In this document: piece after piece, positions 1-10,216 of the stretch
Layout: each line of letters starts with the position of its first letter
How positions within the stretch are numbered: the first letter of the stretch is position 1
Source of the DNA: an uncultured Bacillota bacterium
Lineage (GTDB): Bacteria; Bacillota; JAAYKD01
DNA: 11,449 nucleotides
Reading direction: 5' to 3'
NCBI GenBank assembly: GCA_937897315.1
Contig: CALCNS010000280.1
Coordinates: forward strand, 1 to 11,449
Made by a program: the position numbers and the translations under genes
The notes under the pieces: model-generated
The model's database searches: none
What the model was told of the DNA's origin: nothing
What the model saw: the letters and a program-made list of their open reading frames with translations, nothing else

Positions 1-1236
1 GCAACTTTCGTTTTGGAAGGTGCTTTTTTGAATGTTATGAGTAGGCGAATACTTCCAATTGGATTTCTCGTCAAAATTCGGCATCATGTTATCGTCAACT
101 ACCTCCAGCATGGTTTCCTGTGAAGGAACATGCCGTAGAGCAACGTACTTATAAGGGCGCTCTTCGGTAATCTCTGGATTATAACCTACTCGGAAGATAA
201 TTTTCCCTTCCGAAGAACTGCCCAACCCGGAACCATCTGGTTTCTCGTCCAAATGGCATTCAAAACAATTGTTGTTTGCTTGCGCATGACATACCTGACA
301 GGACAGAGAATCGCCATGTACTTTATGCATGGTATCTTTCGCTGTTGCAGGATTTTGCTCTTCATGACAATCTAAACAAGATGGTAACTCTTCGTCCCAC
401 ATATTGTACGATTCTGTTCCATCGCCATGAAAGTTCGAAGTCGGATGGCAATCCATACAAGTCATACCTTTACTAAAGTGCACATCGCCACTGAATCCAA
501 CTGTTCCCATGTACTCTCCACCATTACGGGCATTGTGACAGGCATAGCAGTTTTCTTCCATGGAGGGTGTGGCTAGGAAATCATGTTGTGAGACTAACCC
601 ATTGGAATAGTTTTTATCACGACTAACATGACAATCCCCACAAGTAGCATGACATTTGTAGCAATCGTTATCGAAGACTTCTTCATGATGCGGACTATCA
701 GATAGTAGTGTAAAATCGGTAAACTCTAGTAGTCCATTGGCAATCCCGCCCAATGTGTAATGAATGGAGGTGCCAAATGTGGTAGTCACATCACTATGAC
801 AATTACCACAGGATACCTCGAAATTACTGGATGGGTATGGGTCCATATCGGCGTGAGCGAGCGCTTTATCTGCTGTATTCTCTCCCCCATGACAAGAAAT
901 ACATCCCAGTTTACCATGAGTGGTCTCCAGAAATGCCTCGGAAACGAGAAACATTTGCACAGCTTCCAGCTGTGGTCCGGGAGCACCTCAGCCGCCTGTA
1001 TTGACGGCCACTGGTTTGTCTTTGCCCCAATTGGATGCAGCGATAACACTTTCATTCGTATGACACGCGACGCAACTAGAACTATCTACGATTTTATAAG
1101 GGAATGGTTCTTCCAGGACCAAACTTCCTGCGGTCGGATTGACGCCCAATTGACTGAAGCCCACGACAGTCACTCCAACCAAGAGAACGGCTAACAAGCC
1201 TAAGAGCCATTTTTTTAAGGCTATGGGCTGATTCAT
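1..1236 (-). CDS. Multihaem c-type cytochrome with a predicted selenocysteine at an in-frame UGA (C-terminus beyond window)
   Basis: Secreted or membrane-anchored electron-transfer protein; 412 codons are visible and the frame is still open at position 1. The N-terminus (residues 8-28: two lysines, then a hydrophobic stretch) is a signal peptide or anchor. Ten CxxCH haem motifs start at residues 55, 112, 143, 192, 199, 230, 260, 287, 313 and 324; residue 412 is a Cys that may begin an eleventh. Codon 83 is UGA (990-988). Translation in the same frame continues without another stop for 329 codons and carries nine haem motifs, so the UGA is most likely read as selenocysteine (context GG-U-GAPGP), helped by the hairpin just downstream. 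The start is the ATG at 1236, eight bases after GGAGG; the GTG at 1245 overlaps that ribosome binding site. The gene lies 36 bases after the rhodanese lipoprotein gene, so they form an operon. It matches no named cytochrome I can place. The alternative is a pseudogene with a nonsense mutation, which I consider less likely. Confidence 0.85.
958..974 (-). promoter_or_regulatory. SECIS-like hairpin downstream of the UGA codon
   Basis: In the mRNA sense, bases +14 to +30 after the UGA read CACAGCT-GGA-AGCTGTG, a perfect 7-bp stem with a GGA tip (or 6 bp with a UGGAA loop). Bacterial SECIS elements are stem-loops inside the coding region with a GG pair in the apical loop roughly 16-37 bases after the UGA, where SelB binds. 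In E. coli fdhF the loop GGU is at about +19 to +21; here the GGA is at +21 to +23. I do not see the bulged U of the E. coli element, but SECIS structure varies among bacteria. Confidence 0.75.
988..990 (-). other. In-frame UGA, predicted selenocysteine codon (Sec83)
   Basis: This is the only stop codon in the cytochrome frame between its ATG and the window edge. It falls between haem motifs 1 and 2 in a glycine-rich segment. The first ATG after it (Met95) has no signal peptide behind it, so a separately initiated downstream product could not be exported for haem attachment. That favours read-through as selenocysteine. No SelA/B/C/D genes are in the window to confirm the machinery. Confidence 0.75.
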
Positions 1237-1272
1237 CGACGTCACCTCCCATTATAATGTTTGACACGTGAC

Positions 1273-2187
1273 CTATTTAGGTACAACTACGCCCAACTCC
1301 GCACCGGTCCAACCAGTCATACCCCGATTTAAACTGATTGCATTAATGCCCATCAGTCTCAAAGGAGCAATGGTAATGCCTGCAGTTTGTCCCGTGTAGC
1401 AAGTTACATAAACCGGTTTATTGGAAGGTAGTTGATCCAAGTTCTTGCCCACTTCTTTGAAAGCAATGTTTTTGGCGGTTGCAATCGCGCCTTTGGCAAA
1501 ATCTTCGGCAGAACGGATATCTAGCACCATAATCGCATCGGGATTTTCTTTGACTAACGCATCTAAGTCAGCCGGAGCGATGATGTAATTCTTATCGGTG
1601 AAGTATGAAACAACAGCATCCCAAAGAATTTGTTTTTTGGCATCTAGTTCCGGTTTTTTAGGTTCGGGTAATTTGTTTTCAGTGGTTTGCAAGGTGGCTT
1701 CCCCTAAATTCAATGGAGCCCAACCAAAGTTCATACCTCCACGGAAAGAAACTGCATTATAACCAAGCATGTTCGCTAAAGCAGTGACTTGAGCAGAAGT
1801 CTGCCCGGAATAACATTGGAAAACAATTTGTTTGTTTGTCGGCAATACCCCTAATTTTTCACCGGTTTTTGCATAGGGAATGTTGACTGCATTGGTGATG
1901 TGACCTTTAGCATAATCTTCAGCAGAACGCATATCTACCCAGAAAACAGCATCGGGGTTCTCGGAGTTCAACTTCAATGCCGCATCTGCCGCCATAATGT
2001 AGTTATTATCCGGAATCGTAGTCAAGAAGCCTTTTACTGCTTCGGCAATGACTTCGGCGGGAACCAAAGCGGGAGCTGGGGCTGGGGTCGGGGTAGGTGC
2101 TGGGGCTGGAGTTTGATTACAAGCAGCTAAGAAAGAGAACATCATAACAAATACTAAAAGCAAGCTAACAATTTTAGATTTACGCAT
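1273..2187 (-). CDS. Lipoprotein with two tandem rhodanese domains
   Basis: Predicted surface-anchored sulfurtransferase, 304 residues. The signal peptide ends in the lipobox LAAC (Cys23, the lipidated residue), followed by a Pro/Ala/Thr linker (about 26-43). Rhodanese domain 1 (about 47-162) has the D-x-R-S-A-E-D-Y-x-K-G-H segment and active loop CYSGQT with Cys125. Domain 2 (about 186-300) repeats this arrangement with DIRSAEDFAKG and loop CYTGQT, Cys263. The near-identical loops suggest internal duplication, and both domains keep the cysteine that would carry a persulfide. The ATG start is preceded by AGGAGG at eight bases. It is the promoter-proximal gene, followed by the selenocysteine-type multihaem cytochrome, so it probably handles sulfane sulfur or a related chalcogen species for that cytochrome. 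The substrate is unknown. From memory, rhodanese-like lipoproteins also sit beside multihaem cytochromes in the Geobacter ext clusters. Confidence 0.9.
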   Translation of the reverse strand: MRKSKIVSLLLVFVMMFSFLAACNQTPAPAPTPTPAPAPALVPAEVIAEAVKGFLTTIPDNNYIMAADAALKLNSENPDAVFWVDMRSAEDYAKGHITNAVNIPYAKTGEKLGVLPTNKQIVFQCYSGQTSAQVTALANMLGYNAVSFRGGMNFGWAPLNLGEATLQTTENKLPEPKKPELDAKKQILWDAVVSYFTDKNYIIAPADLDALVKENPDAIMVLDIRSAEDFAKGAIATAKNIAFKEVGKNLDQLPSNKPVYVTCYTGQTAGITIAPLRLMGINAISLNRGMTGWTGAELGVVVPK

Positions 2188-2221
2188 TCTTTCATCCTCC
2201 TAAATTTTTGAATCCATCCAT

Positions 2222-2257
2222 AACAACCCTTGTTGTTTTGTATTCTCTTTGAAGAGA
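2222..2257. repeat. Two short inverted repeats in the rhodanese leader
   Basis: AACAAC-CCTT-GTTGTT (2222-2237) and TCTCTT-TG-AAGAGA (2244-2257) are both perfect 6-bp inverted repeats. They lie in the untranslated leader between the operon promoter and the ribosome binding site. They could be operators or small mRNA hairpins; neither has a T-tract that would make it a terminator. Confidence 0.35.
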
Positions 2258-2295
2258 CCCCCTTCCTTCGAGAATTCTGTAACAAATCTGTCATT

Positions 2296-2324
2296 ATTCT
2301 AACTTAGTTTTTGACATACGTCAA
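2296..2324 (-). promoter_or_regulatory. Promoter of the rhodanese-cytochrome operon
   Basis: On the minus strand, -35 TTGACG (2324-2319), a 17-base spacer and -10 TAGAAT (2301-2296) form a good sigma-A promoter, one mismatch from consensus in each box. Transcription would start near 2289, leaving a leader of about 100 bases before the rhodanese ATG. Confidence 0.65.
2311..2324. promoter_or_regulatory. Crp/Fnr-type palindrome TTGAC-N4-GTCAA
   Basis: TTGACATACGTCAA is a perfect 5-4-5 inverted repeat, the geometry of Crp/Fnr-family operators (compare Fnr TTGAT-N4-ATCAA). It overlaps the -35 box of the rhodanese-cytochrome promoter. A site on the -35 box can serve repression or class II-like activation. 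No regulator gene is visible in the window. Confidence 0.5.
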
Positions 2325-2387
2325 GTATTCGAATTAAAATTAAGTGATAATTATAACGAAGAGCATAAATAAATGGGATTTTTTTCA

Positions 2388-2416
2388 TATACAACTTTTT
2401 CATATTATGATATGAT
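2388..2416 (+). promoter_or_regulatory. Possible promoter of the HAD phosphatase-diguanylate cyclase pair
   Basis: TATACA (2388-2393), a 17-base spacer and TATGAT (2411-2416) lie about 35 bases before the phosphatase start in an A+T-rich stretch. The -10 is good, the -35 matches consensus at four of six positions. The surrounding A+T richness makes chance matches likely. Confidence 0.35.
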
Positions 2417-2450
2417 GTATTTCAATAACGACTAGTAAGGTGGTATTGTG

Positions 2451-3101
2451 ATGAAACTTCTGGTGATTTTTGATTTAGATGGCACATTATGGGATTCGAG
2501 AAGCCAAATTGTTCCCATTTGGAATCGCGTTTTTTCTCGATATCCAGAAATAAAGATTCGCATTACGGAGCAAGATTGTTTGGGTTATATGGGACGAACC
2601 ATATGGGATATCGCAGAAGAGATTTTGCCCCATCATACAGAAGAACAACGACGCATCATTATGAAAGAATGCAGCATAGAAGAAACCGAATATTTACGGA
2701 TACACGGAGCCGTTTTATATCCACATCTACTCGAAACGCTCAAGGAACTTCAACATGTGGGGTATGATTTGCATATTGTTAGTAATTGTCAAGATGGTTA
2801 CATCGAAGCTTTTATGGAAGCCCATGATATGAACGAATACTTTACAGATTACGAGTGCCCAGGCAGAACCGGACTGAGCAAAGCGAAGAACATTCAACTG
2901 ATTCTCGAAAGAAATCCGTGGAGTAAAGCGGTTTACATTGGCGATACTCTGGGTGATTATAACGCCGCGACGGAAGCAGGACTTCCCTTTATTCATGCAA
3001 AGTATGGATTTGGAAGTGTTCCAGATGCGAAATTTAAACTGAACTCGCTTTTGGAGTTGCCACTGCTGTTGTCGACTCTCTTTGCTAATAGTGGCAAATA
3101 G
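2451..3101 (+). CDS. HAD-superfamily phosphatase (phosphoglycolate phosphatase-like)
   Basis: Cytosolic hydrolase of small phosphorylated metabolites, 216 residues, the normal size for the Gph/PGMB-like branch. All HAD motifs are present: motif I FDLDGTLWDS with nucleophile Asp8 and acid/base Asp10, an alpha-helical cap of type C1 after it, motif II VSNC (about 111-114), motif III lysine in the GLSKAKN segment, and motif IV GDTLGD near 166-171. The ATG at 2451 lies seven bases after AAGGTGG; a GTG one codon upstream would be only four bases away and is less likely. The stop codon runs into the ribosome binding site of the diguanylate cyclase gene, so the two are co-transcribed. The substrate cannot be told from sequence. 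Confidence 0.85.
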   Translation: MKLLVIFDLDGTLWDSRSQIVPIWNRVFSRYPEIKIRITEQDCLGYMGRTIWDIAEEILPHHTEEQRRIIMKECSIEETEYLRIHGAVLYPHLLETLKELQHVGYDLHIVSNCQDGYIEAFMEAHDMNEYFTDYECPGRTGLSKAKNIQLILERNPWSKAVYIGDTLGDYNAATEAGLPFIHAKYGFGSVPDAKFKLNSLLELPLLLSTLFANSGK

Positions 3102-3112
3102 GGGGGAATGAA

Positions 3113-4594
3113 ATGACTTTTCTCAAAAGTAGCACAAAACATTACAGGATACAAATCAATCTAGTGATTAGTTTTATCATCCTACTTGGCTTCTTAACGG
3201 TTGGTTTTAGTACCTATGCCATATACTCAAAGCTAATCAAAGAAGACATTGTCAATATTAGCAAATTGACAGCCAGTAATATCTATGGAGAAATTGGGAA
3301 TGAGTTAACCAAGCCCATTTTCGTATCCCTTACCATGGCTAACGATAGTTTTGTTAAGAAATGGATTTTGGATGAGCAAGCAAACCCGAATACCAAAGAA
3401 CATCGGCTTGAACTTCAGCAGTACTTGCTTGGAATCAAGAGCAAATACTTATACGATTCGGTTTTTCTCATTTCCGATCCATCCAAAATCTATTACCATT
3501 ATGAAGGGATTAATAAAATCATCAGCCCAACCGATTCGCATGATGTTTGGTACTACAATTTCGTCAATAGTCAGATGATTTATGATTTAGATGTGGATAC
3601 CGATCAAGCCAATCAAAATCGCCTATCTGTCTTTATTAATTGTAGAATCGTGGACGAAGATAAGAGTTTACTCGGTGTCACCGGAGTGGGACTTGAAATT
3701 CAGCATGTGCAAGAGCTGTTATCGGGGTTCGAAAACAATTATAAACTAGAAGCTATTTTGTTTAGTAGAGATGGTAGCATTCAAATAGATTCTGCTGGCT
3801 CTCACATGGGAGCCGGGAATCTATTTACTGATCCCATCCTTCAAAACAAACAAGAAGCTATTTTGGCAAACCGAACCGGTTATGAAATCATTGAGTTTAA
3901 AGACCAACCGTACGATGGATACTACATTACAAAATACATTGAAGATTTAGACTGGTATCTTCTTGTTAAGAAAGACACCTCCGATTTGGCCGCTACTTTG
4001 AACGCTCAGATCTATCGCTTCACTTTTATCTATATCTTTGTTACCGCTTTCGTTCTTCTTTTTGCCAACCGAATTATTACAAAGCATCGATTGGAAATGC
4101 TATCTTTAACCAAAACCGATACTCCCACTGGGTTAATGAATCGAAGAGGGTTTAACGAAAAAATCCAAGACTTTGTGACTCATAAAAAAACAGCTGAAGC
4201 CACTCATATTTTTATTTTTGACATTGATAATTTCAAACATGTGAACGATCGCTATGGACATATGGTGGGTGACAATGTATTAAACATGGTTGGTCAGCTT
4301 GCTTCCTCCTTTGTTGGCACCCAAGGAAATATCAGCCGTTGGGGTGGCGACGAATTTGCCGGTAGCTTAAATGGAACTTCAGAAGAGCTGATACCTAAAC
4401 TGGATTCTTTTCTCAACCAAATAAGGAACCATCCGGAGTTGTCCTCCTATGGTATCACCATTAGCTTAGGCATCACGAAGATTCATATGGTGGATTCTGC
4501 CGAATCGGTAGTTCATAGGGCGGATCAGGCCTTGTATAAAGCAAAAGATCTAGGAAAGAACTGTTATTACGTCATGGAAATTCAACAGAAGTAG
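3113..4594 (+). CDS. Membrane-bound diguanylate cyclase (GGDEF) with extracytoplasmic sensor
   Basis: Predicted to make cyclic di-GMP from two GTP in response to an outside signal; 493 residues. A transmembrane helix (about 16-38) is followed by an extracytoplasmic region of about 260 residues resembling a Cache-type sensor, a second helix (about 303-320), then a C-terminal GGDEF domain. The metal/nucleotide segment FDIDNFKHVNDRYGH and the catalytic loop RWGGDEF (GGDEF at 411-415) are intact. There is no RxxD at the usual spacing before GGDEF, so the product-inhibition I-site appears absent. No HAMP domain is evident. The start is set by a run of six G ending just after the phosphatase stop, eleven bases before the ATG. 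The gene converges on the ygbA-like gene with only eight bases between stops; I see no clear terminator there. Confidence 0.9.
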   Translation: MTFLKSSTKHYRIQINLVISFIILLGFLTVGFSTYAIYSKLIKEDIVNISKLTASNIYGEIGNELTKPIFVSLTMANDSFVKKWILDEQANPNTKEHRLELQQYLLGIKSKYLYDSVFLISDPSKIYYHYEGINKIISPTDSHDVWYYNFVNSQMIYDLDVDTDQANQNRLSVFINCRIVDEDKSLLGVTGVGLEIQHVQELLSGFENNYKLEAILFSRDGSIQIDSAGSHMGAGNLFTDPILQNKQEAILANRTGYEIIEFKDQPYDGYYITKYIEDLDWYLLVKKDTSDLAATLNAQIYRFTFIYIFVTAFVLLFANRIITKHRLEMLSLTKTDTPTGLMNRRGFNEKIQDFVTHKKTAEATHIFIFDIDNFKHVNDRYGHMVGDNVLNMVGQLASSFVGTQGNISRWGGDEFAGSLNGTSEELIPKLDSFLNQIRNHPELSSYGITISLGITKIHMVDSAESVVHRADQALYKAKDLGKNCYYVMEIQQK

Positions 4595-4602
4595 TTCATC
4601 TC

Positions 4603-4938
4603 TTATTTACTATTCAGTTTTGTTAAAACGAAATATCTCAACGTTAAAATGGGATGATGCCATAACATACGGGGACCCGCATATCGCATAACTTTGCGTA
4701 TTTGCTCGCGTCGATTTGGATCATAACATTGAACTTTGCATAACGAACAAAAACTCTTTGTCTCCATGAGAGGGCACGCATCGATTCTTTGCCAAGCGTA
4801 TTCTTTAAGCGTTTGACATGAATCGCAGAGGCGCTGACCCTCTTTTTTTATATGCCTTTTTCCTGTACAGTACATTCTAATCATAAGTTCCAATACCGCT
4901 TTTTCATTATCTTTTTTCTGCTCTATCATGTCTGGCAT
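4603..4938 (-). CDS. ygbA: YgbA family protein (nitrous oxide-stimulated promoter family)
   Basis: Small cytosolic Cys-rich protein of 111 residues, about the usual family size. Recognised from the order of conserved elements: an early MIRMYC (Cys24), CDSC (38-41), the segment Y-A-x-Q-R-I-D-x-C-P (Cys55), CSLCKVQC (Cys64/67/71), R-E-x-I-R-x-V-M-R-Y-x-G-P-R-M-L, and a C-terminal H-P-I-x-x-L-R. In enterobacteria ygbA is in the NsrR regulon and has been linked to recovery from nitrosative stress; the biochemical role is not settled. The paired cysteines suggest metal or Fe-S binding (inference). Two starts are possible: the ATG at 4938 (AAGG upstream) or the ATG at 4929 (GGAAG nine bases before). 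It has its own promoter and is monocistronic in view. Confidence 0.85.
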   Translation of the reverse strand: MPDMIEQKKDNEKAVLELMIRMYCTGKRHIKKEGQRLCDSCQTLKEYAWQRIDACPLMETKSFCSLCKVQCYDPNRREQIRKVMRYAGPRMLWHHPILTLRYFVLTKLNSK

Positions 4939-4966
4939 CTTCCGCCTTCTTTCGCCGTAGGGCTCA

Positions 4967-4981
4967 TTGTATTTCTCACAA
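4967..4981. promoter_or_regulatory. Imperfect palindrome over the ygbA transcription start
   Basis: On the minus strand TTGTGAGAAATACAA has matching TTGT...ACAA ends. It sits directly downstream of the -10 box, where a repressor would block initiation. Given that ygbA genes elsewhere answer to nitric oxide, an NO- or redox-responsive regulator is a reasonable guess, but only the outer four bases on each side are symmetrical. Confidence 0.3.
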
Positions 4982-4983
4982 AA

Positions 4984-5012
4984 ATCATACCATTGAAGCT
5001 TGAGATTTGCAA
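4984..5012 (-). promoter_or_regulatory. Promoter of ygbA
   Basis: On the minus strand, TTGCAA (5012-5007), a 17-base spacer and TATGAT (4989-4984) are preceded by TGG, giving an extended -10 (TGnTATGAT). It lies about 46 bases before the start codon, with a predicted transcription start near 4977. Confidence 0.65.
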
Positions 5013-5505
5013 GTTTTCTCCCCTAAGAAGTGTTTGTTTTTAAACGCTACTGAGTATTTTTTTGTATTTTTATTAATCTTTATGAGTTTTTCGAGCACCT
5101 ATCTACAAGAAAACTCCTATATTACACATCAAAATATAGAACTTTTGCTATACTTTATCGTTTATTACTATATAAAAACTTAGTTTATCTTCTTTTTCTA
5201 TTATACCAGTGGAGAAACTCGATTAATTTTATTATGCAATCCTAAAGAACAGCCAAAAGTGCTTGCTGGGATTCTTACATGGAATGCGAATTTTATAAGC
5301 GAAAAGGGGGTGTGTACTGCAACTACAGGTCCGTCGTTAGAAAAAATCGGTCTTATGATGCATCGTTAGTCCATTTGTTTTTTCGTTCGGCTCCGAGGGG
5401 GCCTGCTCAATTCGCAGTCAGTCCAAACCACACATCTTGATTCTGCACATGGTAAATATTTCTGCCGCGTGATGAATCCGCTCCGTTATCGTTAGGAGGA
5501 TTTTG
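5013..5505. other. Long intergenic region between divergent ygbA and the amidohydrolase operon
   Basis: No convincing gene. The left half (5041-5235) is very A+T-rich and carries an extended -10-like TTTTGCTATACT (5143-5154) that could serve the amidohydrolase operon, with a poor -35. The right half (about 5290-5500) is less A+T-rich and would be a leader RNA of 200 or more bases. It contains a 6-bp hairpin GGCTCC-GAG-GGGGCC (5389-5403, one G-U pair) and three copies of TCGTTAG (5334, 5363, 5489), the last just before the ribosome binding site. I found no match to a riboswitch class I know; T-box and c-di-GMP signatures are absent. Confidence 0.5.
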
Positions 5506-6822
5506 ATGAAACACTCCAAAGAAGAACTCAAAAAAATTGCTTGTGCAGCGATTGACCAAAATCGTGACGCGATTATTGCTTTAGGCGACTCTATTTTAGT
5601 AGAACCCGAATTAGGATACAAGGAGTTTAAGACTGCAGACAAGGTCAAGAAACTCTTTGAACAATTAGGGTATCCCTATCGTAGTGAAGTAGCGATTACC
5701 GGCGTCGTAGCAGAACGCAAGGGAAAAGAATCCAAAATGAAGGTCGCTATTATGGGAGAATTAGATGCGGTCATCGTTCGTGATCATCCTTACGTTTGTG
5801 AAGAAACCGGTGCCGCTCATGCGTGCGGACATAACTGCATGATTGCTTCCTTAGCCGGCGTTGCCTATGCACTAAAAGGCACGGGTATTATGGAAGAACT
5901 CTCGGGTGATATTGTTCTCATGGCCGTTCCTGCAGAAGAATATGTAGAACTCGGTTATCGCAATAGTTTACGCGAAGCCGGCAAGATTCATTTCTTAGGT
6001 GGGAAACAAGAATTCATTCGTTTAGGTGAATTCGATGGAATCGATGCCATGATTATGCAACACACCACTAGTACTACCGGCAAAGTTAAGGCCTTAACAC
6101 GTAATTTTAGTAATGGATTTACCGGGAAACTGGTCCGCTACATTGGTAAAGAAGCGCACTCCGGCGGAGCTCCTCATATGGGTATCAATGCCTTGAATGC
6201 GGCTCAAATTGGTCTCATGGCTGTTCATGCTCAACGTGAAACCTTTAAAGACGAAGATCACATTCGTGTTCATCCCATCATTACAAAAGGTGGAGACCTA
6301 GTCAATGTAGTTCCAGCCGATGTCAGAATCGAAACCTATGTTCGTGGTAGCAATGTTCCGGCTATTTTAGATGCCAGCTTCAAAGTCAATCGAGCTTTCA
6401 AAGCCGGTGGCGATGCGGTCGGTGCACAAACCGTCATTACAGAACTACCTGGTTATTTACCCAGTTGTTTCGATGAGAAACTAACCGATGTGATGCATGC
6501 TAATTTGGTTGCATTGCTCGGTGAAGAAGCCGTTTTACGTGAAGGTCCCAGTGGTGGTGGTTCCACCGACGCATCTGATGTAGCACACTTGATACCAACG
6601 CAACACATTTATATGGGCGGCTCGGTAGGTGGAGCACACAGTAAGGAATTTATGATCGCTGACAAAGAACTGGCCTATATCAATGCTGCCAAAGCCTTGA
6701 TTTGCACCGCCATAGATATGTTAGCGGATGGAGCAGAATTGGGTCTGGATATAAAGAACAATTTCAAAGCTCCCATGACAAAAGAAGAATATTTAACCAA
6801 ATGGGGTCATCTAAATTCTTAA
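5506..6822 (+). CDS. M20 family metallo-amidohydrolase/peptidase
   Basis: Predicted cytosolic di-metal hydrolase that cleaves an amide bond, 438 residues, the usual size for the M20D (HipO/AbgB-like) group. Visible signatures are GELDAV (84-89), the metal-binding HACGHN (105-110; Cys107 and His109), the catalytic pair PAEE (Glu144/145), MQHTTS with another likely His ligand, a dimerisation (lid) domain in the middle third, GGGSTDASDV, and the C-terminal GGAHSKEF with the last metal-binding His. The common HACGHD is HACGHN here. The ATG at 5506 is six bases after AGGAGG; the TTG just before it is not needed. Two membrane protein genes follow on the same strand, pointing to import and hydrolysis of an N-acylated or peptide-like compound. 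The substrate is unknown; aminobenzoyl-glutamate, hippurate-like or indole conjugates are only family precedents. Confidence 0.88.
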   Translation: MKHSKEELKKIACAAIDQNRDAIIALGDSILVEPELGYKEFKTADKVKKLFEQLGYPYRSEVAITGVVAERKGKESKMKVAIMGELDAVIVRDHPYVCEETGAAHACGHNCMIASLAGVAYALKGTGIMEELSGDIVLMAVPAEEYVELGYRNSLREAGKIHFLGGKQEFIRLGEFDGIDAMIMQHTTSTTGKVKALTRNFSNGFTGKLVRYIGKEAHSGGAPHMGINALNAAQIGLMAVHAQRETFKDEDHIRVHPIITKGGDLVNVVPADVRIETYVRGSNVPAILDASFKVNRAFKAGGDAVGAQTVITELPGYLPSCFDEKLTDVMHANLVALLGEEAVLREGPSGGGSTDASDVAHLIPTQHIYMGGSVGGAHSKEFMIADKELAYINAAKALICTAIDMLADGAELGLDIKNNFKAPMTKEEYLTKWGHLNS

Positions 6823-6831
6823 TTTTTTTAG

Positions 6832-6847
6832 CTGAATAATGATTCAG
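6832..6847 (+). repeat. Small hairpin between amidohydrolase and DUF3100 genes
   Basis: CTGAAT-AATG-ATTCAG is a perfect 6-bp inverted repeat in the 54-base gap. It has no downstream T-tract (the T run is upstream), so it is not a terminator. It may affect mRNA processing or relative expression of the enzyme and transporter genes. Confidence 0.35.
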
Positions 6848-6876
6848 TAACTAATCGTATAGGAGGAAACAATAGC

Positions 6877-7710
6877 ATGAAGCATTTTAACCTCAAAGAC
6901 TGGAAAGTCCATTTAATGTGTATTGTCATTGTTGTTATCGCAGAGTTAATCGGTAACTTCAAATATGCCAACGGTCTCTTAAGTTTTACATTATTCCCCA
7001 TGCTTTACGCCTTGGTAATTGGCGCTATCTTCTTTGGTGTGAAGATCATTGATCAAAAAATGATGGAAACTGCATCCCCTTACATTGGGATTAGCGTTAC
7101 CCTTTTAACCGTAAAAGTGGGCTCCACCATTGGCCCGAACCTTGAACAAGTTATCAAAGCCGGTCCTGCACTTTTATTACAAGAATTAGGAAACCTAGGA
7201 CCAATTCTGTTCTCTATGCCCATTGCCATCTTTGTGTTTAATATGGGTCGTGAAGCCGTAGGAGCTTGTTTCTCCATTTCCCGTGAAGGTTCCTTAGCCG
7301 TTATCGGTGACCTCTATGGTCTCGATTCTGCTGAAGGCCGCGGTGTTATGGGTGCTTATGTTACCGGAACCTTATTAGGCACCATTTTCAATAGCTTAAT
7401 GTCATCTGCTGCTTTAGCATCGGGCTTGTTCCATCCTTTCTCTCTTGCCATGGCTTGCGGAACCGGTTCAGCTTCGATGATGACCGCAGCTTTAGCACCA
7501 CTGGTTGAGAAATTCGCTGCTCAACCTGAAATGGTAACCCAAATGCAAGCGTATGCGGCAGGTAGCCAAATTTTAACTGGTGTTGATGGTCTCTACATTA
7601 ACTTATTCGTAGCAATTCCCTTTACCAACTGGTTCTACAAAAAGTTAAAACGTATGAGAAACCCAAATATCACCGAAGCCGAGCTATTACCTGTTAAAAA
7701 AGTGAAATAG
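6877..7710 (+). CDS. DUF3100 family integral membrane protein, probable transporter subunit
   Basis: Inner-membrane protein of 277 residues, recognised as DUF3100-like from its N-terminal W-x-V-H-L-x-x-I-V-V-I-A-E-L-I-G segment and overall composition. Hydrophobic segments are at about 11-28, 34-57, 66-86, 91-123 (probably two), 157-210 (two) and 236-255. The central region 124-205 (F-S-I-S-R-E-G-S, then a Gly/Ala/Ser-rich stretch ending in A-C-G-T-G-S-A-S-M-M-T-A-A) resembles substrate-path regions of permeases of the LrgB/KdgT type; this is my impression, not a demonstrated homology. The C-terminus is basic and cytosolic (KKVK). AGGAGG lies before the ATG. It follows the amidohydrolase gene by 54 bases and precedes the partner membrane protein by 16. 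The family has no established function that I know of. Confidence 0.75.
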   Translation: MKHFNLKDWKVHLMCIVIVVIAELIGNFKYANGLLSFTLFPMLYALVIGAIFFGVKIIDQKMMETASPYIGISVTLLTVKVGSTIGPNLEQVIKAGPALLLQELGNLGPILFSMPIAIFVFNMGREAVGACFSISREGSLAVIGDLYGLDSAEGRGVMGAYVTGTLLGTIFNSLMSSAALASGLFHPFSLAMACGTGSASMMTAALAPLVEKFAAQPEMVTQMQAYAAGSQILTGVDGLYINLFVAIPFTNWFYKKLKRMRNPNITEAELLPVKKVK

Positions 7711-7726
7711 GTAGGAGGAAAACATC

Positions 7727-8236
7727 ATGGAAAAATGGGCAACTCGAATAAAGGTCCTGTTCTTTGCCGCTTTATTTGCTTCCTTAGGAAACACAATAAA
7801 CACCTGGGTAACACATAACAGATCTGCTACACCGGCAAAAGTCATTATTTATATGCCTTGGGACGTTTGGCCAGCATTGGCTTTAATGGTCGCTATTTGT
7901 ATGCTTGGCCTCGTCATCACCGATTGGGTAGAGAAAAAATGGCCAAAAGCTGATTTACCAAGTATTCTTTTCATCTCAATGATTGCTATTATTGTAGGGT
8001 TACCGGGAGTTTCTCCTTTAGCCAACTTCATGAAAGTTGAATTTGCTAAAATTGGTTTGCTGCCTCTTTGCACCCCGATTCTTTCTTATGCCGGTATTTC
8101 AATTGGCAAAGACCTACCTGCTTTTAAGAAGCAGGGTATAGCCATTGTCACCGTAGCATTATTCACATTCATTGGTACCTTCATTGCTTCTGCTATTATA
8201 GCTGAAATCGCTTTACGGGCAACCGGACAAATCTAA
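7727..8236 (+). CDS. Small integral membrane protein, partner of the DUF3100 protein
   Basis: 169 residues with about five hydrophobic segments: roughly 9-29, 45-66, 77-103, 105-128 and 138-164. It has no family motif I recognise. The ATG follows AGGAGG by eight bases, and the gene is only 16 bases after the DUF3100 gene, so translation is closely linked. A two-component membrane unit, like the LrgA/LrgB arrangement of a small and a larger subunit, is a reasonable inference. The residues GLPGVSPLANF and CTPILSYAGISIGKDL contain helix-breaking Gly/Pro pairs typical of transporters. It is the last gene of the operon and is followed directly by a strong terminator. Confidence 0.7.
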   Translation: MEKWATRIKVLFFAALFASLGNTINTWVTHNRSATPAKVIIYMPWDVWPALALMVAICMLGLVITDWVEKKWPKADLPSILFISMIAIIVGLPGVSPLANFMKVEFAKIGLLPLCTPILSYAGISIGKDLPAFKKQGIAIVTVALFTFIGTFIASAIIAEIALRATGQI

Positions 8237-8250
8237 TTATACCTTTGTTT

Positions 8251-8288
8251 AAAAAACGAGCCGCTTCACCAGAAGCAGCTCGTTTTTT
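8251..8288. terminator. Bidirectional rho-independent terminator
   Basis: AAAAAACGAGC, C, GCTTC, loop ACCA, GAAGC, A, GCTCGTTTTTT: a long stem with one C-A mismatch, an A-tract before and a T-tract after. It works on both strands. It ends the amidohydrolase-transporter operon on the plus strand and the hydrolase-small membrane protein operon on the minus strand, whose last stop codon touches it. Confidence 0.92.
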
Positions 8289-8451
8289 ATCTTCCTAAAA
8301 TTAAAAACCCGAAAAAGAAAATTCCCGCACCCATGAGAGCTCCCATGACTGAGCTAAAATTCATTCCAGTTCGTAGTGCCGCAACTAATGCCAAGCCTAC
8401 AGTATAAATTCCCAATCCCATAATGCTCAAGCCGGGTAAGTATTTTTTCAT
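8287..8451 (-). CDS. Small 54-residue, two-helix membrane protein
   Basis: This short frame begins MKKYLPGLSIMGLGIYTVGL and ends FGFLILGR. It has two hydrophobic helices (about 6-26 and 34-51) joined by a short RTGMNF turn, with a positive N-terminus. A GAGG ribosome binding site lies eight bases before the ATG. The start is 18 bases after the alpha/beta hydrolase stop, and the TAA sits at the edge of the terminator. Clean placement between a stop, a ribosome binding site and a terminator supports a real gene. The function is unknown. Its Gly/Ala-rich helices resemble small hypothetical membrane proteins common in Bacillota. Confidence 0.75.
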   Translation of the reverse strand: MKKYLPGLSIMGLGIYTVGLALVAALRTGMNFSSVMGALMGAGIFFFGFLILGR

Positions 8452-8469
8452 CGTTCTATCCTCATGGTG

Positions 8470-9399
8470 CTATATTTTTGTCACATATTGCTGCAAAAAT
8501 TTGACCTTTTTTGGAATGTATTCATCCCGTGCTACCCAAGAGGCTGCATTGTGAGAAGCATTCTCCACAATCCAAATTTCTTTTGGAGCATTGCACGCTT
8601 GTATCATTTCTTGAGCTGCTGAAAGGAGTACAAATTTATCTTGAGCCCCATGGATGAAGAAAGTAGGCGTCGTTGATTTTTTTACCGCCTCTATGGGAGT
8701 TATTTCATCAAATGTATAGTGGCAGATTAATTTACACCATTGTTCAATAGCCCACATATGAATTTGTTTCAAGTATTGCGAAGGGAAATGGACCATCCCG
8801 GAAATGAGCCCACGTAATGACGCAAAAGAGCTATCACTAATCAGAGCTTTCACTGATTTAGGGAAGTTGCCTTCTCCACTTAAAGACAATATGGCAGCTG
8901 CTCCAATGGACGAGCCATCGAGTACAAATTCGAGCTCGGAACCACTGAGCTTTTGAAGATGATTCAACCAAGCAATAATATCATATCTGTCGCTAATTCC
9001 CATACCAATGTACTTACCTTGACTTTTGCCATGGGAACGGAGATCCGGAAGAAAGACCGAATATCCTAATTGGGCATACTCGAATCCTTCACGCATTTTC
9101 ATTTCAGCTTCATCCTGCCAACCATGTAGGAGGATGATTGTGACCGGGTTCTTTGTCGGTAGATAATATCCATGAAGTTTATACCCTTGATGAACAATAT
9201 CTAACTCTTGGGGATTTAGTTTTTTAAAATTCTCTATTCCCTGCCAATAATGTTGTGCTTTAGCCATACTTGCTTCCGGTATTTTTTCGATTATCAGTTT
9301 GCGCCGAGGGTTTTGAAATAAAGTCTGAAAAATCTGATAGGAAAATAATAACAAAACGAACAAAAAACCAGCGACCACAATAGCAGGCAAATACTCCAT
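8470..9399 (-). CDS. Membrane-anchored alpha/beta hydrolase
   Basis: 309 residues, similar in size and layout to B. subtilis YqkD-type serine hydrolases. A single N-terminal transmembrane helix (about 6-28) is followed by a basic PRRK stop-transfer, suggesting either an extracytoplasmic or an anchored cytosolic catalytic domain. The fold signatures are complete: LLHGWQDE (91-98, oxyanion region), PDLRSHGKS (118-126), nucleophile elbow G-S-S-I-G with Ser164, and the likely acid Asp254 (HGAQDKF) and catalytic His283 (NASHNAA). Ester or amide hydrolysis is expected; the substrate is not predictable. AGAGGT lies seven bases before the ATG. The 54-residue membrane protein gene follows and the pair has its own promoter. 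Confidence 0.88.
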   Translation of the reverse strand: MEYLPAIVVAGFLFVLLLFSYQIFQTLFQNPRRKLIIEKIPEASMAKAQHYWQGIENFKKLNPQELDIVHQGYKLHGYYLPTKNPVTIILLHGWQDEAEMKMREGFEYAQLGYSVFLPDLRSHGKSQGKYIGMGISDRYDIIAWLNHLQKLSGSELEFVLDGSSIGAAAILSLSGEGNFPKSVKALISDSSFASLRGLISGMVHFPSQYLKQIHMWAIEQWCKLICHYTFDEITPIEAVKKSTTPTFFIHGAQDKFVLLSAAQEMIQACNAPKEIWIVENASHNAASWVARDEYIPKKVKFLQQYVTKI

Positions 9400-9431
9400 G
9401 GATAGTACCTCTTTCTCAGTTGGTTTTCATC

Positions 9432-9460
9432 ATTATAACACGAATATTGGCTGTTATCCA
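9432..9460 (-). promoter_or_regulatory. Promoter of the alpha/beta hydrolase operon
   Basis: On the minus strand, TATAAT (9437-9432) is preceded by TGT, a consensus extended -10. The -35 is TGGATA (9460-9455) at 17 bases, four of six matches. It lies about 30 bases before the start codon. Confidence 0.65.
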
Positions 9461-9504
9461 GCAAATCCTTTTTGTGCTGCTACCTTTTATAAATAAACTC
9501 AAAC

Positions 9505-9532
9505 TTGACTTCGTGCATTTTGTGGATATAAT
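9505..9532 (+). promoter_or_regulatory. Promoter of the YczE-like gene
   Basis: TTGACT (9505-9510), a 16-base spacer and a perfect TATAAT (9527-9532). Transcription should start near 9539, leaving a leader of about 33 bases. The gene is divergent from the alpha/beta hydrolase, with about 45 bases between the two -35 boxes. Confidence 0.75.
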
Positions 9533-9571
9533 CATAGGAGAAACATATTCTTAACCTTGAAAGGACTCTTT

Positions 9572-10216
9572 ATGAAACATTTTTTACTAAGATTACCACG
9601 CCTTTTTTTAGGGCTCTTTCTGTATGCTTTGGGAATTTACGTTACAATTCGTGCGAACATTGGCTATGCTCCTTGGGATGTCTTCCACACCGGCTTATCT
9701 AAGGCTACAGGGATGACTTTGGGAATGTCTTCCATCATCACGGGGGTGGTCATTGGCATTTTTGCTGTGTTGCTGGGTGAGAAGATTGGTTTAGGAACTC
9801 TGGCTAATATGGTGGTAGTAGGTGTTTTTATCGACGTGTTAATGACCTGGAACCCGACTCCGGTAAACCAAAACTTTTGGTTTGGTATTCCCATGATGAT
9901 TGTGGGTTTATACATCATTGCTTTTGCCACTTACTTTTACATTGGAACCGGGTTCGGTGCAGGCCCTCGCGATAGCCTCATGGTTGCGCTAACTCGCAAA
10001 ACGAAATTACCGGTTGGGTTATGTCGTGGAACGATAGAAGTTATCACCTTACTCACCGGTTGGTATTTAGGAGGTCCTGTCGGTTTAGGCACGGTGCTCT
10101 CTGCTTTTGGTTCAGGATTTTGTGTGCAAACAACTTTCAAGCTCATGCGGTTCGATATCACTTCTGTGAAACATGAAACTTTGGCAGATACTTGGCGCTT
10201 AATGCGCACAACGTAG
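9572..10216 (+). CDS. YczE/YitT-type integral membrane protein
   Basis: 214 residues, five to six predicted membrane helices. The early segment L-Y-A-L-G-I-Y-V-T-I-R-A-N-I-G-Y-A-P-W-D-V-F-H and the later G-T-G-F-G-A-G-P-R-D-S-L-M are hallmarks of the YczE/YyaS/YitT membrane family; the two halves look like an internal duplication. B. subtilis YczE has been linked to surfactin and other lipopeptide production by an unknown mechanism, but no such genes are here. The ATG at 9572 lies six bases after AAAGGA; a TTG at 9557 would precede that site and is rejected. It is a single-gene unit with its own promoter and terminator. Confidence 0.85.
   Translation: MKHFLLRLPRLFLGLFLYALGIYVTIRANIGYAPWDVFHTGLSKATGMTLGMSSIITGVVIGIFAVLLGEKIGLGTLANMVVVGVFIDVLMTWNPTPVNQNFWFGIPMMIVGLYIIAFATYFYIGTGFGAGPRDSLMVALTRKTKLPVGLCRGTIEVITLLTGWYLGGPVGLGTVLSAFGSGFCVQTTFKLMRFDITSVKHETLADTWRLMRTT

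Follow-up and report, generated by a model that had tools for sequence, protein, structure and literature searches.

Analysis of the window, which is the whole stretch of 11,449 nucleotides given above, indicated that a multihaem c-type cytochrome gene lies at its beginning on the minus strand and that a gene coding for an exported rhodanese lipoprotein is found next to it. The features are as follows.

1..1236, minus strand: gene of a predicted selenocysteine (Sec)-containing multihaem c-type cytochrome; base 1 of the window cuts off its 3' end with the 11th haem motif and the stop, and the C-terminus is taken from the public record P0002.
1242..1250, minus strand: Shine-Dalgarno-like GGGAGGTGA, 5 nt upstream of the ATG, recognised from the sequence.
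1147..1215, minus strand: N-terminal hydrophobic signal or anchor segment, seen by eye in the translation; it corresponds to helix 9-33 in the structure model of the L001 homologue.
1060..1074, minus strand: first CxxCH, the sole one preceding the TGA by motif count.
988..990, minus strand: in-frame TGA, predicted Sec residue 83 counted from the ATG at 1236, in the Gly-rich loop GG-U-GAPGPQL.
958..974, minus strand: SECIS-like hairpin CACAGCU-GGA-AGCUGUG, from folding and comparison among loci.
1273..2187, minus strand: exported lipoprotein with two rhodanese domains (PF00581, 3.4e-28 in two stretches), encoded upstream at 36 bases from the cytochrome ATG and the likely partner of the cytochrome.

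The cytochrome frame begins with the ATG at 1234-1236, leaves the window at base 1 and covers 412 codons up to the window edge; its sole stop is the TGA at codon 83 (bases 988-990). CxxCH motifs were located at codons 55, 112, 143, 192, 199, 230, 260, 287, 313 and 324, one of the ten before the TGA and nine after it, and the Sec loop is located between haem motifs 1 and 2. Since P0002, a public record of identical sequence, extends beyond the window edge and supplies one more CxxCH and the C-terminus, the whole cytochrome carries 11 motifs. An earlier note on this DNA had described a frame of ten CxxCH motifs broken by a single UGA over 412 codons, with nine haem motifs and no export signal after the UGA; this description was borne out on the minus strand, which the note had not named, nine motifs being counted and no signal peptide being seen by eye downstream of the site. 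The structure model of the L001 homologue drew on 75 sequences chosen by hand from the 120 listed homologues, together with those of the window, L001 and L002. Elsewhere in the window, positions 4603-4938 code for a YgbA family protein (PF11756, nitrous oxide-stimulated promoter).

Homologous loci were collected from a genome-contig scan (2 loci), from 249 genomes of the order to which G001 belongs (6 genomes) and from 398 genomes of the phylum searched with a profile, among which 17 had a cytochrome homologue; a class-wide search returned one genome out of 391, the one at its own centre. Loci L007, L008 and L018 repeat L001 and L002 and were counted once. Alignment of these loci revealed a single in-frame TGA at the aligned residue in 17 of the 22 homologous loci, or in 18 of 23 when the window is included, and the recurrence at the same residue in 17 loci besides the window excludes chance. 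The TGA members in alignment A3 showed 33-78% identity to the window cytochrome. The Sec loop of most TGA loci reads G(G/A)-U-G(A/V)xxP(Q/K)L, and that of L024 and L027-L029 reads GE(S/G)-U-AGPPPP. The remaining loci were L026 of genome G1001, with TCA (Ser) at the Sec site, and the four homologues L030-L033, which carry no Sec loop (three as judged from alignment A3, L033 by eye). None of the 23 loci has TAA, TAG or a Cys codon at the Sec site, and Cys was also absent from three proteins that span the site. The homologue comparison proposed in the earlier note upheld the TGA in 18 of the 23 loci and also turned up sense residues (Ser in L026, Trp in P0017 and P0114, Phe in P0101) and the four loop-less homologues; the note had listed sense residues of this sort among the results that could refute it, and they are few beside the 18 TGA loci. 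The alternation of Cys with Sec at residue 83 that the note had looked to was not found, the alignment having given no Cys; homologues with Cys in place of Sec are common for bacterial selenoproteins but do not define them. The phylogenetic tree of 22 rows (without L010-L012 and L033) showed long branches and does not decide for or against a single gain of Sec. No relatives were found by a scan of viral contigs and plasmids.

The public protein records carry the trace of the same site. A total of 277 protein homologues was found, and among the best 120 of these 117 start downstream of the Sec site, 54 of them within 10 residues of it, in agreement with the earlier expectation that gene callers would split or truncate the gene. 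The other three of the best 120 span the site, where P0017 and P0114 have Trp and P0101 has Phe; P0101 and P0114 are more distant members. A search with N-terminal pieces gave 35 records, 33 of which terminate in GG or EG at the Sec site; P0142 terminates there in VG and P0140 is different. Protein records do not show the type of stop codon at the split. The N-terminal fragment P0151, which has a long Thr/Pro-rich stretch like that of P0114, terminates in EGEG, so that a stop may lie at the Sec site in this more distant group too. Members of the P0118 group, named Anaerolineae, share truncated protein starts, which would point to a TGA there as well. The family is hidden from annotation because its gene is cut at the TGA, and several members were named thiosulfate/3-mercaptopyruvate sulfurtransferase by JGI.

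That public records break at the TGA is also what would be expected of a true stop, whether it separates two adjacent genes or arose by nonsense mutation or sequencing error, and the 2007 account considered a conserved operon of two genes for the Geobacter cytochrome ExtKL (PMC1914089). This explanation is very improbable for the present family: the identical site recurs in 18 loci from separate assemblies, the residues are conserved flush across it (GG-U-G..PQL), a hairpin follows, and the downstream part, which carries nine to ten haem motifs and no signal peptide by eye, could hardly obtain haem alone.

The hairpin in the window consists of a 7 bp stem and a GGA loop and is located at a distance of 17-33 nt from the TGA, measured from its T. 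It was named SECIS-like from folding and comparison among loci. A stretch of 24 nt, positions 13-36 when numbering starts at the T of the TGA, was folded and set against shuffles of synonymous codons. All 18 TGA loci fell below the shuffle mean; their mean z was -1.76, and 797 control windows taken from these genes averaged -0.03 (Mann-Whitney 3.5e-9, kinship ignored); the TGA loci are kin, so this pooled p-value is not clean. Taken singly, 8 of the 18 loci reached p 0.05, and in 17 of the 18 the hairpin window was in the most stable tenth of the windows of its own gene. The test on a wider window of 42 nt was weaker (mean z -0.92). The hairpin that the earlier note had placed at the right distance downstream was recovered as more stable than its codon-matched controls.

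Within the clade of the window the stem CACAGCU-GGA-AGCUGUG showed a compensatory change from C-G to U-A in three of nine sequences (L009, L017 and L026). Cells with changes on both sides of the stem were matched by 6 of 500 shuffles; the number of doubly changed pairs was not unusual, being equalled in 380 of 500. The other clades have a different stem at a nearly equal distance from the TGA, L025 has a stem of 3 bp only at the hairpin place, and G1001 has retained the hairpin despite the TCA (Ser) at its Sec site.

Searches for the Sec machinery revealed selB above the cut-off and tRNA-Sec in all 22 genomes with homologues (6 of 6 and 16 of 16 for each), the selB match covering part of the model in G697 (2-362 of 581) and in G922. 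All 18 genomes searched for selD contained it, with one internal TGA each, which served as an internal positive control; in G1001 selD is in two pieces. Every one of the 17 relatives with a TGA cytochrome had selB, tRNA-Sec and a TGA-bearing selD. In G001, the one genome in which selA was examined, selA, selB and tRNA-Sec are clustered. As selB also occurs in 18 of 20 order neighbours that lack the cytochrome, the machinery shows that Sec insertion is possible and not that the two are associated, and it is weak evidence.

The 11 genes of the window contain 40 TGG codons, 36 in the ten other genes and 4 in the cytochrome, and the TGA of the cytochrome is the only in-frame TGA among them. A reading under code 4 was rejected on this count. 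It also argues against translation of the TGA as Trp, by an altered code or by leaky read-through, as do selB, tRNA-Sec and the TGA-containing selD of related genomes. The Trp at the Sec site of P0017 would favour that explanation, and this record may itself stem from a gene call made under code 4; we consider translation as Trp or leaky read-through extremely unlikely. As a side observation, the nine complete genes at 1273-10216 of the window terminate in TAG (six) or TAA (three) and none in TGA, which may be due to chance.

Because a TGA and no other stop is conserved at the site, because both sides are coding, and because a positioned hairpin is present and the carrier genomes hold the Sec machinery, the reading advanced in the earlier note is supported, and we consider it very likely that TGA codon 83 is read as selenocysteine; selenium in the protein is a prediction from the DNA.

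Analysis of the genes beside the cytochrome showed that a rhodanese gene adjoins it in every one of the 17 TGA loci whose neighbouring gene could be read, preceding the cytochrome in 7 of them and following it in 10; L010 was left out of the count since its contig ends too early. Eleven of these rhodaneses were confirmed by Pfam and six were identified by tblastn with the window rhodanese (L001, L002, L011, L012, L035 and L044). The window rhodanese has a lipobox-like LAAC and the Cys loops CYSGQT and CYTGQT, one per domain. Sixteen rhodaneses, 15 out of the 17 plus the one in G1001, were checked for the active-site Cys, and each has retained at least one; P0071 is a single protein of 655 residues in which a cytochrome of the family is fused to two rhodanese domains. 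No rhodanese was detected beside the four loop-less homologues by tblastn, a search that also missed some true rhodaneses, nor by a Pfam scan of ten proteins near them (L047:5648-6826, with masked bases, left out). In G1001 the active-site Cys codon of the second rhodanese domain (L046:4896-5789) is TCA (Ser), like the Sec codon of the cytochrome. This is a possible joint loss of Sec and one rhodanese Cys, and the paired Ser replacements, in a single case, suggest that the two residues work together. It is highly likely that cytochrome and rhodanese are functionally paired.

Genes for ResB (6 loci) and ResC (3 loci), which we take to be haem-attachment proteins, were found downstream in the clade of the window. 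At L040:10085-11676 (G735) a six-haem protein and a membrane protein that looks cytochrome b-like by eye are encoded upstream of the Sec cytochrome, and at L050:9662-12044 the genes after a loop-less homologue code for a b561-type cytochrome and a sulfur transport protein (PF04143).

Sec-containing multihaem cytochromes had been predicted before. The earlier note named no characterised selenoprotein of such a kind; ExtKL of Geobacter, already known as a predicted Sec multihaem cytochrome, corrects it on this point. A 2007 study put ExtKL forward as a selenoprotein (PMC1914089), its authors link it to selenite reduction (PMC5877670), and a 2026 review, in its available part, names as Sec c-type multihaem cytochromes ExtKL and TIGR04315, and also a CXXCH-containing barrel protein, the GSU2204 family (PMC13188914). 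ExtKL (NF040886; GSU2937-2936) resembles the family of the window in being a c-type multihaem protein with one TGA, in having had no non-Sec homologues at the time of the 2007 account and in the rhodanese (ExtH) of its cluster (PMC5877670, PMC1914089). That account gives it five haem motifs, all N-terminal, a C-terminal part unlike known proteins and no SECIS (PMC1914089), whereas the window family has 11 motifs and a hairpin, with the predicted Sec placed after the first motif and before the second. With NF040886 (cut-off 250 bits) the window protein gave no match at E 1, and none of 22 members matched at 1e-3. TIGR04315, the GenBank-annotated tetrathionate reductase family octahaem selenoprotein, is likewise a Sec multihaem cytochrome according to the review (PMC13188914) and was absent from the 13 NCBIfam families that the 22 members scanned matched at 1e-3. 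The DmsE-type decahaem model TIGR03508 gave the window protein 36.3 bits against a cut-off of 192.2.

The sulfite reductases SirA/MccA, the tetrathionate reductase OTR and multihaems of the HAO/OcwA type are among the closest known systems. A Foldseek search of the PDB had no hit below 0.001, and a second look gave weak matches only, mostly HAO-like; we therefore make no claim on the fold of the window cytochrome. Since none of the Sec multihaem models named in the available part of the review (ExtKL, TIGR04315 and the GSU2204 family) is among the matched families, we regard the family as new and of a known kind. By sequence comparison the 11-haem cytochrome belongs to a separate family of predicted Sec multihaem cytochromes, with the rhodanese partner as its mark. 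Our literature search, which covered the 2026 review in part (PMC13188914), brought up no earlier report of it.

A link to sulfur physiology is offered by Dethiobacter alkaliphilus. The genome report, in its available part, describes a thiosulfate sulfurtransferase, DealDRAFT_1917, that directly adjoins the rhodanese DealDRAFT_1918, and states that key sulfur reduction genes were not found (PMC5609068). A later study treats DealDRAFT_1917 as a misidentified SirA-like multihaem that was reliably raised on thiosulfate versus ferrihydrite; it terms the protein octahaem, whereas the Sec cytochrome family has 11 CxxCH, and it reports other multihaems up on thiosulfate, DealDRAFT_1451 and 1670 the most and above DealDRAFT_1917 (PMC10376724). 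In our collection P0043, named D. alkaliphilus, carries the sequence of L019 (genome G979), and among the rhodanese loci found in G979 only that of L019 has a multihaem gene within the examined stretch. DealDRAFT_1917 is very probably the L019/L034 gene of G979 (C9:44565-45731), a match based on the neighbouring rhodanese, on how the gene is named and on the genome and not on a locus tag. If so, its peptides map beyond the TGA, in keeping with read-through. Soehngenia, in a comparison with Gudongella, is described as reducing thiosulfate, and S. longivitae also sulfur; the part of that study available gives no acceptor data for Gudongella (PMC7763609).

The reading that we favour as a whole, and consider probable, is that of an exported 11-haem Sec cytochrome which would take sulfane sulfur from the rhodanese and release sulfide. 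The downstream hairpin would help TGA codon 83 to be read as Sec, and the Cys of the neighbouring exported rhodanese would be loaded with sulfane sulfur drawn from thiosulfate or polysulfide. This sulfur would then pass to the selenolate of the cytochrome, forming a selenosulfide, from which electrons delivered through the haem chain would set it free as sulfide. For the substrate itself the chances are about even that it is sulfane sulfur or thiosulfate, handled by Se-S transfer chemistry. Slightly short of that, we tentatively suggest that the protein is a terminal reductase that acts without molybdenum on thiosulfate, polysulfide or sulfur, with the Sec by a haem chain and a dedicated extracellular rhodanese.

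Two further explanations were weighed. The Sec reading may be correct and the substrate may be a selenium or tellurium oxyanion or a metal, as proposed for the Geobacter ext cluster, which likewise pairs a rhodanese (ExtH) with a Sec cytochrome (ExtKL) (PMC5877670); the NCBIfam ExtM model was matched by 21 of 22 members, far below its cut-off (42 versus 800 bits for the window). Against such a substrate, ExtKL was above the cut-off in none of six carrier genomes searched, where sub-threshold fragments alone appeared (L013-L016), and DealDRAFT_1917 was induced by thiosulfate (PMC10376724), so that we regard it as rather unlikely, though a serious contender. The cytochrome might also conduct electrons out of the cell in a general way, with Fe(III) as one possible acceptor, and Sec and rhodanese might serve repair or sensing. 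Its multihaem architecture, and a modelled weak structural likeness to OcwA among others, would agree with this. The increase of DealDRAFT_1917 on thiosulfate relative to ferrihydrite (PMC10376724), the constancy of the rhodanese neighbour and the finding of none beside homologues without the Sec loop make a general conduit improbable.

If the preferred reading, sulfane sulfur reduction by a Sec cytochrome paired with a rhodanese, is right, it adds a selenoprotein family with 18 loci at the DNA level and 277 related protein records, not all of which necessarily carry the TGA; its members are now annotated as fragments, some under the name of thiosulfate sulfurtransferase. It would also be a case of a selenol working with a haem wire and a rhodanese, a combination met again in the Geobacter ext cluster. 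The family would provide a testable candidate for thiosulfate or sulfur respiration without Dsr or molybdopterin enzymes, a point that two studies leave open for D. alkaliphilus (PMC5609068, PMC10376724), and a catalyst for thiosulfate reducers such as this species, for which the genome report did not find key sulfur reduction genes (PMC5609068).
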